A stretch of 64,000 nucleotides of DNA from Pedobacter sp. PLR. GTDB lineage: Bacteria > Bacteroidota > Bacteroidia > Sphingobacteriales > Sphingobacteriaceae. Made by a program: the position numbers and the translations under genes. The DNA lies in contig NZ_JAPIVQ010000002.1 of NCBI RefSeq assembly GCF_026239675.1, forward strand, positions 62,001 through 126,000, read 5' to 3'. Below are positions 41,812-45,849 of this stretch, one piece after another. The notes under the pieces were generated by a model. It saw only the letters and a list, made by a program, of their open reading frames with translations, searched no databases and was not told where the DNA came from. The number at the start of each line of letters is the position of its first letter. Within the stretch, counting starts at the first letter, position 1.

Positions 41812-41873
41812 GTTTAGTTTACATTTATTCTAATATATAAGCTAATATATAAATGTATAAACGTAAACTAAAC
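41812..41873. promoter_or_regulatory. Nested inverted repeats upstream of the XRE gene, candidate operator
   Basis: An 11-bp perfect inverted repeat (GTTTAGTTTAC 41812-41822 / GTAAACTAAAC 41863-41873) encloses an 8-bp one (ACATTTAT 41821-41828 / ATAAATGT 41849-41856). Inside lies a direct repeat of CTAATATATA (41830-41839 and 41842-41851). It begins 11 bp before the XRE start codon, the position expected for an autoregulatory operator. Confidence 0.6.
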
Positions 41874-43102: not shown

Positions 43103-43174
43103 AATATATTGTGCGAAGTTATCAATAAAAATATAGAGATTTGAACTTTGTACGAGAATAAAATAGTAATTGTT

Positions 43175-43540
43175 ATGGAAATAAAAGGAAAAGTGCATGA
43201 AATTGGTGCATTACAACAGGTGAGTGAGACTTTTAAGAAACGTGACCTGATTATAGAATACGCAGAAAATCCTACTTATCCAGAGTACATCAGATTTGAA
43301 GCTTTACAAGATAAAACAGCTTTATTCGATAGCCTGAAAACTGGTGATGATGTGGAAGTTTCTTTTAACTTACGCGGTCGTCCATGGACTGATAAAACAG
43401 GGAAAACATCATATTTCAATAGTCTGGTCGTATGGCGTATCAATGCCTTGACTCCGGGAGCAGCAGCAGCAACACCAGCTTACGCTCCGCCAGCAGATTT
43501 GAACAATGCTCCAGGTGAGGAAGACGATCTTCCTTTCTAA
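43175..43540 (+). CDS. DUF3127 OB-fold protein with SSB-like acidic tip
   Basis: A 121-residue protein. The first 90 residues fit DUF3127, a predicted single-strand nucleic-acid-binding OB fold (MEIKGKVHEIGALQQVSETFKKRDLIIEY...VSFNLRGRPWTD...TSYFNSLVVWRI). A Pro/Ala-rich linker leads to the C-terminus GEEDDLPF, which closely resembles the DDDIPF tip of SSB that recruits repair and replication proteins. It may bind ssDNA or RNA; the role is inferred. It is divergent from the RNA methyltransferase and followed by a strong terminator. Confidence 0.85.
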   Translation: MEIKGKVHEIGALQQVSETFKKRDLIIEYAENPTYPEYIRFEALQDKTALFDSLKTGDDVEVSFNLRGRPWTDKTGKTSYFNSLVVWRINALTPGAAAATPAYAPPADLNNAPGEEDDLPF

Positions 43541-43574: not shown

Positions 43575-43608
43575 AGCCTGTCCGATCATTCGGACAGGCT
43601 TTATTTTT
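43575..43608 (+). terminator. Intrinsic terminator of the DUF3127 gene
   Basis: Perfect 11-bp stem 43575-43585 / 43590-43600 (AGCCTGTCCGA/TCGGACAGGCT) with loop TCAT, followed by a T-rich run. Confidence 0.93.
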
Positions 43609-43698
43609 TTGCCGTTTTTTTAGCGGACTCCCGGTTCCCTTTCAATGGCCCTCAGGTTTTCTTTAATCTATCTTCGGAATCCCTCAGTCTGCTATGCA

Positions 43699-43815
43699 GT
43701 AGCAGGTTGCCGAAGGATTGTCGGAGAGGTGCTGAAGACCTGAAGAAGGGTTTGCCTCCGGCAAGCCTCCCTTACTCCTGAGTAATTCTCCGACAATCCT
43801 TCGGCAACCTGCTAC
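43699..43815. repeat. 117-bp element with perfect 29-bp inverted arms (REP/MITE-like)
   Basis: The arms at 43699-43727 and 43787-43815 are exact reverse complements over 29 bases. The left arm begins GTAG, and the right ends CTAC. The 59-bp centre folds into a further GC-rich hairpin with TCCG loop (43746-43772). It may be a BIME-type pair of REP sequences or a MITE. No second copy was noticed in the window. Confidence 0.7.
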
Positions 43816-43990
43816 ACGATACTATTCCCGTACATTTTCTCCGGGTTTCCTCCTGTTTCTCTGATTACGTTATTTAGTCTCAAAATCATATTCCACATTA
43901 AAAGCAATAAACAGACTTTAGGCATCGTAATTTAGGCGCAATCAGCGTGTTAAAAAGTGTTAAATAAGCGGGTTTGTGCCCGACCTTAGC

Positions 43991-44010: not shown

Positions 44011-45849
44011 ATGAAAAAAAGAAGTCTTTGGTTAATCACCGCTCTAATGACCATAGCTTTGCTTGGTGTCTTTGTAATGCAATTGTATTACATCAGGGAG
44101 GCGTATGCCCTAAAATCTCAACTTTTTGAACAGGATGTGAGCCAGGCTTTAAATGCTGTAGTCAACAAAGTGCAGAAGAGATATGCGGCTACGCATCTGT
44201 ACAAAAAAGAAGATCAGCTGAAAGAAGAAAGAGAAGCAGAGCTGAGGGATAAAGCGCAGATTCTGGTAGAATTTAAGGAACAGCATAAGGCAAAAGAGGA
44301 ACGCCGGAAACTGGAACAGCAAAAGAAAATTATTGCGGATCTGAATATGCAGGACAGTGTGATCCGCAGCAACTATCTGAACCCAACGATCATTCCCGAG
44401 ACAGAATACCTGTCAATGTCGAATGGGGAGGATGACAAGAAATCTCCTTTACAGGTAGATATGAATTTTGGAGTCGATAAGGCCGGGAATGTGGTCACCG
44501 CCAATGTCAATCAGGTCTATATCCCTGAGAAATCGCAAACTTTTAGCGTCTCTACCGACAAGCTTCCGGATAGTATCCGATATCTGGCTTTTAATCCTTT
44601 TACTAAAAAACCTCTGCTGATTACGCTGCCACGTGTTTCTCCGGATATGGTGTCGAAGTTTAAAAGTGAAGATGAGATCGAAAATCAGAAATTTTCAAGG
44701 GCTTTTAAAGACTTGTTAAAGGATACGGTAATCATTAAAACCAATAGCCTGAGTTACCTGGAGGATGTCGCCAAGGAGATGCGTCAGGAAAGTGTGCCGA
44801 TGGATGAACGGGTGCCCAGAGATGTGCTGGATACACTGATCAAAACGGAACTCCTGAACAGGAATATCAAGCTCGACTATGATTTCTGGGTGAAACTGGC
44901 AAGTAAAGACTCTGTGGTTTACCGTAAGGTGTCTAAGGAAAGCGTGATACCTACCCAGGCAAATTTACATACGGTAACCTTGTTTAGCGACGATATCTTT
45001 AGAGATCCAGGGTTGTTATACGTCACGTTCCCTAAAGAAGATTCTTTGATATTTAGCAACCTGAGCGTCACGATGGCCTCTTCGGCCGCCTTATTGCTCG
45101 TGCTCGTCTTTATTTTTTCCTATACGATATATACGATTTTAAAGCAGAAGAAAATCTCGGAGATGAAAACTGATTTCATCAACAACATGACCCATGAGTT
45201 TAAAACTCCGGTGGCTACCATTATGATTGCCAGTGAGGCGCTGAAGGATCCCGAGATCGCAGAAGACAAGAGCAGAGTGAAAAGACTGGCAGGGATCATC
45301 TATGATGAAAACGTGCGTCTGGGAAATCATATTGAAAGGGTTTTGAGTATCGCCCGACTGGAAAAGAAAGAATTGAAACTGGAAGAAACCATTGTGAATG
45401 TCAACGAGCTGATCCTCGTTGTGGTAGACAGTATGGACTTGCAGCTGAAAAAGAAAGGAACAGTATTGAAACTGGACCTTGCTGCCACACAACCGCTGAT
45501 TTTAGCGGACGAGCTGCATTTTTCCAATGTCATTTATAACCTGATTGATAACGCCAATAAATACAGTACCGGAACGCCGGAAATTAAGATCGGCACCAGG
45601 AATATCAATAAACACCTGGTGATTGAAGTGTCGGATGCTGGTATTGGCATGACAACAGAAGAAACAAAACGTATTTTTGATCAGTTCTACAGAGTACCCA
45701 CCGGAAATTTGCATGATGTCAAAGGATTTGGCCTTGGCCTGAACTACGTCCAGGACATCGTCCAGCAGATGGAAGGGAAAATTAAGGTGTATAGTGAAAA
45801 AGATAAAGGCACTGTATTTGAAATAATCTTACCCCTAAACCGTAAATAA
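44011..45849 (+). CDS. Sensor histidine kinase with large periplasmic domain
   Basis: A 612-residue kinase. N-terminal transmembrane segment (LWLITALMTIALLGVFVMQLYYI); a long periplasmic domain of about 330 residues with a Glu/Lys-rich coiled coil at residues 70-110; a second membrane segment (SSAALLLVLVFIFSYTIYTIL); HisKA with the phospho-His in NNMTHEFKTPVAT (about His395); HATPase with NLIDNANKYS, DAGIGM and GFGLGLNYV. It overlaps its response regulator by one base (TAATG). The layout resembles RprX-type kinases of Bacteroides, but I do not assign the name firmly. Confidence 0.93.
   Translation: MKKRSLWLITALMTIALLGVFVMQLYYIREAYALKSQLFEQDVSQALNAVVNKVQKRYAATHLYKKEDQLKEEREAELRDKAQILVEFKEQHKAKEERRKLEQQKKIIADLNMQDSVIRSNYLNPTIIPETEYLSMSNGEDDKKSPLQVDMNFGVDKAGNVVTANVNQVYIPEKSQTFSVSTDKLPDSIRYLAFNPFTKKPLLITLPRVSPDMVSKFKSEDEIENQKFSRAFKDLLKDTVIIKTNSLSYLEDVAKEMRQESVPMDERVPRDVLDTLIKTELLNRNIKLDYDFWVKLASKDSVVYRKVSKESVIPTQANLHTVTLFSDDIFRDPGLLYVTFPKEDSLIFSNLSVTMASSAALLLVLVFIFSYTIYTILKQKKISEMKTDFINNMTHEFKTPVATIMIASEALKDPEIAEDKSRVKRLAGIIYDENVRLGNHIERVLSIARLEKKELKLEETIVNVNELILVVVDSMDLQLKKKGTVLKLDLAATQPLILADELHFSNVIYNLIDNANKYSTGTPEIKIGTRNINKHLVIEVSDAGIGMTTEETKRIFDQFYRVPTGNLHDVKGFGLGLNYVQDIVQQMEGKIKVYSEKDKGTVFEIILPLNRK

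Follow-up and report, generated by a model that had tools for sequence, protein, structure and literature searches.

Between a DUF3127 gene and a putative sensor histidine kinase gene of Pedobacter sp. PLR lies an inverted repeat whose two 29-bp arms, set 59 bp apart, are exact reverse complements, which raises the question of what kind of element this is and how it came to occupy the site. The original prediction, made from the letters of the 64,000-nucleotide stretch analyzed here as a whole (the window), assigned it to a dispersed palindromic repeat family and, pointing to the letters GTAG at its left tip, proposed a REP sequence handled by a RAYT protein.

A perfect inverted repeat built from phased 11-bp units

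The repeat stood up well to comparison with chance, as an arm match was found in none of 100 dinucleotide shuffles, and the arm, with up to three mismatches allowed, occurred at two places only within the window. The G+C-rich hairpin that had been placed in the 59-bp centre corresponds to the small stem listed in Table 1, and the segment 43690-43825, folded as DNA, reached a z of -10 against 200 shuffles. Self-comparison of the element revealed a finer order, an 11-bp phasing: the self-match at lag 11 was 20/33, whereas all other lags from 7 to 15 stayed at or below 17, and 1 of 2000 single-base shuffles scored as high. The element resides in a 470-bp spacer, downstream of the terminator-like hairpin of DUF3127, which is intact. 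Elsewhere in the window, an imperfect 28-bp A+T-rich inverted repeat (82%, 41812-41873) is located just upstream of a small gene whose product looks helix-turn-helix-like by eye.

Table 1. Features of the array and its surroundings (window positions)
Feature	Position	Strand	Basis and remarks
Whole element, ~150 bp	43683..43832	.	Match to covariance model R1, 125 bits (equals G000:C12:105683-105832)
Left exact arm, 29 bp	43699..43727	+	Sequence comparison of arms
Right exact arm, 29 bp	43787..43815	-	Sequence comparison of arms
Four 11-bp units, left side (GTTGCCGAAGG ATTGTCGGAGA GGTGCTGAAGA CCTGAAGAAGG)	43706..43749	+	Lag-11 self-match
Four 11-bp frames, right side	43765..43808	-	Read directly; outer two equal left units, inner two degenerate
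Central small G+C-rich stem-loop	43750..43766	.	Sequence reading and folding
DUF3127 flanking gene (context only)	43148..43540	+	Pfam PF11325; ATG start at 43175
Terminator-like hairpin and T run after DUF3127	43575..43610	+	Read directly; kept in alignments of close relatives
Putative sensor histidine kinase gene (context)	44011..45849	+	ORF list; orthologues in relatives; name from the original prediction

The element belongs to a dispersed family in the host genome

A plain DNA search of the 5.8-Mb host assembly (G000) retrieved a single relative of the element (E 3.6e-4). A loose pattern, giving 220 matches as compared to 94 for its reversed control, led upon inspection of the places to eight elements, whose alignment shows a centre flanked on one side by four degenerate 11-bp units (GTTGAYGAAGR) and on the other by the units inverted, with TATA-like motifs on the outside. 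A covariance model, for which 150 of 941 candidates were scored, recovered these eight elements and did not add another at E 1; because scoring was restricted in this way, and to 21 candidates per genome in the genus search described below, all element copy numbers are lower bounds. The matches of model R1 to the window element and to the other seven hold by construction, since R1 was built from these eight copies. A pattern of tandem units gave 162 matches against 52 in its control, and 20 of the 22 matches having at most two mismatches fell inside the eight elements. A strict lag-11 detector requiring two arms proved too stringent, as it missed the window element itself. With at least eight family members uncovered by the genome-wide search for further copies, the element is not single-copy, and a unique hairpin or a plain terminator is ruled out; membership in a dispersed palindromic repeat family, as originally proposed, is thereby confirmed.

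The family is dispersed, intergenic and hairpin-forming. None of the eight elements is overlapped by an ORF of at least 90 aa; improbable ORFs of 72 and 66 aa overlap two of them. Together the eight occupy three contigs, which make up 43% of the genome. A second array type (GCAAAAC) occurs in the same genome, once before a DUF6266 gene (C34:81444) and once as a solo, that is, gene-less array (C34:160925). The eight copies have diverged from each other, showing a mean column identity of 66-67%. Given this divergence, the exact arms do not by themselves mark the window copy as young, and recent movement of the GTTG-type arrays is not visible in the host genome. The idea that the exact arms reflect a recent arrival thus fared unevenly, being in line with the polymorphic state of the site among close relatives but not with the diverged copies in the host genome.

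The same spacer carries different arrays in related species

We compared the site across DUF3127 loci from 80 named records, which set the host within Pedobacter, in the vicinity of P. gandavensis, P. polysacchareus, P. steynii and P. caeni. The comparison with strains lacking the element, as the original prediction had advised, yielded two cases, because no array was detected in the DUF3127-kinase spacer of P. gandavensis (kinase 90% identical) and strain N36a (87%). In P. polysacchareus the spacer contains an array with a unit different from that of the window; P. steynii, strains BAL39 and L105 and a Pedobacter MAG (L153) carry spacer arrays of quite different 11-bp units; and weaker arrays were read by eye in P. 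caeni and strain KBW06. Self-similarity of at least 24/33 was reached among the 80 loci by nine at lag 11 and four at lag 22, and by 0-1 at each other lag from 5 to 23; at a laxer threshold of 22/33, the numbers were 13 for lag 11, 10 for lag 22, nine for lag 9 and six for lag 15. At the very site of the window element, P. ginsengisoli Gsoil 104 harbors an array together with two DUF6266 genes. Solo arrays as remnants left behind by lost DUF6266 genes are possible, and we set this reading aside because, within the fetched extent of the 80 DUF3127 loci, DUF6266 was present in that of P. ginsengisoli alone.

In the wider genus, a plain DNA search with the element found no match at E 0.01 in 118 other genomes. 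At E 0.01 the covariance model detected relatives in 21 genomes out of 145 of the genus, a count that includes the host, and lag-11 scans detected relatives as well; the units of these relatives differ, with GTTGATACGGG in genome G077 and GTTGCTATAGG in G100, for example. Some of the separately counted elements are orthologues in close genomes (e.g. loci L070, L089 and L205). Several sites are common to species having different units, namely the window site (G100, G077), a position near tig (G060), one near purB (G095) and one at the neighbouring gene of rpsL (G118).

Other repeats were seen as well. In the P. kyungheensis group (L177, L181, L183, L189, L190, L197, L203), the DUF3127-kinase spacer holds another, shorter palindrome of the ACTTCCGAAGTTT type, and the spacer therefore accepts several unrelated palindromes; in P. 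soli (L178) it is nearly empty. Arrays of GTGGACTNNNN recur in several Pedobacter species (G077 L273 9981-10035 and L275 4999-5060; L130, L137, L150), and in the loci fetched no DUF6266 partner was present for them.

Arrays with 11-bp phasing precede many DUF6266 genes

One family member of the host genome (C1:79694-79844) is positioned upstream of two tandem genes encoding DUF6266 (PF19781), one of them at C1:78807-79388. Counting this case, DUF6266 adjoins the array in 10 of 53 element loci, eight times as two genes in tandem; within the window, DUF6266 is absent. The gene is multicopy, with 29 matches in the host genome and 11-35 in each of eight Pedobacter genomes searched, and two other genomes of the genus, included in the phylum draw described below, had no DUF6266 match.

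Inspecting the 450 bp upstream of 30 Pedobacter DUF6266 genes, which were taken, best E-values first, from eight genomes picked for carrying arrays, we found a lag-11 self-match of at least 20/33 in 15 and of at least 22/33 in 10, as compared to 0-2 reaching 20/33 at lags 7-10 and 12-15. Within the host genome, the upstream 450 bp attained 20/33 at lag 11 for 8 of 25 DUF6266 ORFs versus 12 of 694 other ORFs (Fisher 6e-8), and other lags gave 0-2 of the 25. The 694 control ORFs are six-frame ORFs of at least 100 aa from 800 kb, spurious ones included, and their 12 cases represent background, because other lags from 8 to 14 give 8-28. In a draw of 296 Bacteroidota genomes that were not selected for arrays, DUF6266 occurred in 21 (own included), usually with 1-5 matches and in several families. 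For 27 DUF6266 ORFs from other Bacteroidota, the upstream region reached 20/33 at lag 11 in 14 cases and 22/33 in 11, with lags 8, 9 and 10 reaching 20/33 in 1, 3 and 5 cases and lags 12-15 in none. Neighbouring control ORFs had an array in 0 of 12 cases in the phylum set and in 1 of 18 in Pedobacter, where the figure for DUF6266 was 18 of 36. The self-match thresholds were picked while inspecting the data. Counting against a partnership between array and gene, 17 of the 25 host DUF6266 ORFs and 13 of the 27 in other Bacteroidota lack an array at threshold; the two Pedobacter genomes of the draw without a DUF6266 match weigh in the same direction. A literature search, judged by title and abstract, found no description of such arrays. 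According to these data, the arrays before many DUF6266 genes suggest an undescribed repeat-plus-protein system that is different from the known REP/RAYT.

Unit type follows the DUF6266 protein, and solo arrays tend to resemble those of their own genome

The units differ from one DUF6266 gene to another. Unit similarity tracked DUF6266 protein identity with a Mantel r of 0.29 (1 of 5000 permutations as high), and for pairs below 60% identity r was 0.21 (4 of 5000). The test comprised the 31 genes with arrays among 68 distinct DUF6266 genes examined, and 10 of the 31 came from loci found via their arrays or site.

A corresponding link connects gene-less and gene-associated arrays. In 20 of 39 cases, a solo array was best matched by the DUF6266 arrays of its own genome, whereas chance would give about 4.9 (Wilcoxon 2.7e-4; label shuffle, 5 of 2000); this set omits 11 of 43 covariance-model solos, whose genomes had no fetched DUF6266 to compare with, and adds seven found de novo, with three A+T-rich low-complexity segments excluded. 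By genome, the own arrays ranked first for 4/4 solos in G060, 4/4 in G047, 3/3 in G100, 6/11 in G077 and 3/9 in the host, and for 0/1 in G095, 0/3 in G118 and 0/4 in G015, where two (G118) and one (G015) DUF6266 arrays were available for comparison. Against a partnership, the GTTG solos of the host genome placed its own DUF6266 arrays first in just 1 of 7 cases. For the window element, the DUF6266 arrays of its own genome ranked third of eight, and its link to DUF6266 therefore rests mainly on the family member in front of the DUF6266 pair.

Dispersed copies with sharp ends occur in other Pedobacter genomes

Multiple dispersed copies with defined ends are present in two genomes, G077 and G015. 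In G077, the unit pattern produced 81 matches and none in the control, corresponding to about 14 dispersed arrays, one of them at a DUF6266 gene; in G015, unrelated sites hold four solo copies that resemble each other and end sharply. The DUF6266 genes are themselves duplicated: several in the host genome are dispersed duplicates, 82-94% identical in DNA, whose shared stretch comprises part of the 5' leader plus the gene. In duplicate groups A, B and D this stretch runs to the stop codon or up to about 85 bp beyond it, and in group C it stops inside the gene.

Among 11 G077 copies, covariation between the arms amounted to 0.116 as compared to 0.079 in shuffles (0 of 500 as high), and cells changed on both sides numbered 22 versus 15.6 (10 of 500). 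Only these two of five measures clearly exceeded the shuffles, the percentage paired, pairs changed and pair types not being above them (70, 113 and 419 of 500). Four sites in G077:C1 (171194, 1442388, 2200201 and 4976724) bear a sister hairpin with GTTGAGAAGGGGTTGATAAGG in both arms and appear to be young copies. The G077:C1 arrays of one type extend from 0.8 to 5.1 Mb, with 12 of 14 in 37% of the chromosome (simulated p ~0.007, Rayleigh p ~0.011), and the crowded side surrounds a GC skew change from minus to plus at ~3.4-3.6 Mb, one plus sample lying at 3.0 Mb.

A resident protein may read and spread the arrays

Stated most safely, the window element represents a solo array from a repeat family associated with DUF6266. 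Going further, we consider the chances evenly balanced that it is a solo, REPIN-like hairpin array of ~150 bp whose partner protein, DUF6266, reads and spreads such arrays. By analogy with REPIN-RAYT pairs, recognition and spreading would proceed as follows. Eleven bp is about one helical turn, and a DUF6266 protein could thus read its cognate units side by side on one face of the DNA; arrays would spread and persist because of DUF6266, as REPINs do with RAYTs; the exact arms of the window copy may stem from homogenisation between both arms rather than from youth; and this copy would sit in a tolerant spacer between the terminator and the kinase gene. More tentatively, DUF6266 and its cognate 11-bp-phased inverted arrays might constitute an undescribed two-part system of Bacteroidota, with clade-specific units, multiplication without a known transposase, and co-divergence of array and protein.

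The main rival, which we regard as rather unlikely, is that the arrays are operators: DUF6266 or another regulator would bind the phased units and control its own gene, solo arrays would make up a regulon, and nothing would move. Arrays upstream of DUF6266 genes fit this arrangement, as do the positions common to several species (those close to tig and to purB, that by the neighbour of rpsL, and the DUF3127-kinase spacer), which are compatible with regulatory sites or a hotspot as well and in this respect speak against spreading. Among the 41 solos flanked by a gene at either end, divergent pairs enclose 12 and co-directional pairs 23, in favour of operators, but convergent pairs enclose six. 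Moreover, arrays at the same site differ between species and go undetected in close relatives, and the four G015 copies look copied.

It appears improbable that the element is an ordinary MITE of a DDE-type transposon, with the DUF6266 genes as passengers or sharing only its insertion preference. The arrays resemble MITEs in being short, non-coding, dispersed, intergenic and polymorphic, and in G015 their outer motifs are TIR-like (TATATGR...CCATATA). In contrast to MITEs, however, they are statistically linked to a gene family. Phased arrays before DUF6266 recur with different units in several Bacteroidota families, passenger status would not explain why the unit type tracks the protein, and no target-site duplication was seen, there being no clean filled/empty pair and the spacers being too diverged.

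A still smaller chance falls to a transcribed hairpin, whose long stem would act as a 5' leader or a processed double-stranded RNA. Eleven bp is also about one turn of A-form RNA, the fold is strong and the arms co-vary; yet no Rfam family matched the window element above its gathering score, solos occur in all gene orientations, and complementarity is often lacking in the inner and outer unit pairs.

To a GTAG-type REP or REPIN mobilised by a RAYT we give hardly any credence: the element is an intergenic hairpin with GTAG letters at its tip, but these letters are found in one of the eight family members (the window copy itself; alignments A1-A3), the other seven having different letters there, its build, ~150 bp of 11-bp direct repeats arranged in inverted arms, differs from a palindromic unit of 20-40 bp, and no Y1_Tnp gene (PF01797) was matched in the genome at E 0.01. 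The original remark that the window lacks a RAYT gene can hence be extended to the whole genome, in a search that did return matches in 6 of 14 genomes. In seven other genomes with arrays, PF01797 was absent from six, and G015 gave one truncated match. The GTAG letters were correctly read, and membership in the REP/RAYT class is contradicted by these results.

Relation to known repeat systems

In plasmid partition of the ParR/parC type, an 11-bp iteron array lies next to a gene. The arrays described here differ in forming inverted pairs, in being dispersed in the chromosome and in standing beside a gene of another family, DUF6266. A likeness also exists with REPIN-RAYT systems (REPtrons), for which PMC3733652 and PMC3116915 describe dispersed intergenic hairpins of inverted units, related copies beside a resident gene, and repeat-specific genes of the IS200/IS605-like Y1 transposases. 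Both systems combine dispersed intergenic hairpins of inverted units with copies by a resident gene, and they differ in that the present arrays pair with DUF6266, have no conserved GTAG, yielded no Y1/HUH gene, and measure ~150 bp with phased 11-bp units as against REPs of 20-40 bp. The Bacteroidetes TnpA_REP subclass 2.6 is portrayed in PMC6006769 as having 'atypical secondary structures', with hairpins that flank the gene and have copies elsewhere in the genome. The two share the phylum and a gene whose hairpin structures recur in the genome, but the subclass 2.6 gene is a Y1 transposase, whereas no PF01797 match was found in the host genome and 6 of the 7 others. If DUF6266 proteins recognise or spread the arrays, a repeat-gene partnership like that of REPINs and RAYTs would have arisen from an unrelated protein, and the gene-by-gene divergence of units would offer natural material for work on the evolution of DNA recognition.

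The DUF6266 protein

The family, multicopy in the eight Pedobacter genomes searched and present in several Bacteroidota families, is now tied to a specific, searchable DNA signature, and its function thereby becomes testable. We know of no DNA activity of DUF6266, which counts against its being the partner of the arrays, and a literature search for DUF6266/PF19781 returned no mention. Searches with four DUF6266 proteins gave no match in PHROGs and nothing near the cut-offs in NCBIfam; a comparison with PDB sequences gave no match at E 1, and no catalytic motif was seen by eye in the alignment. A confident AlphaFold2 model (pLDDT 90.9) predicts N-terminal strands and helices, followed by a C-terminal half that is FnIII-like. 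Among the 50 matches listed by VIA-align, the modelled C-terminal residues ~110-209 matched FnIII-type chains with Z up to 8.2 (92 residues, rmsd 2.3), a predicted similarity that is within the range of common arrangements. For residues 1-110, the 50 matches listed attained at most Z 2.6, and Foldseek with the model gave no match at E <=0.001, missing fold matches of this kind being compatible with a known enzyme or DNA-binding fold. At four loci (L288, L294, L295 and L302), the DUF6266 proteins carry a C-terminal extension of ~140 residues that looks acetyltransferase-like by eye.
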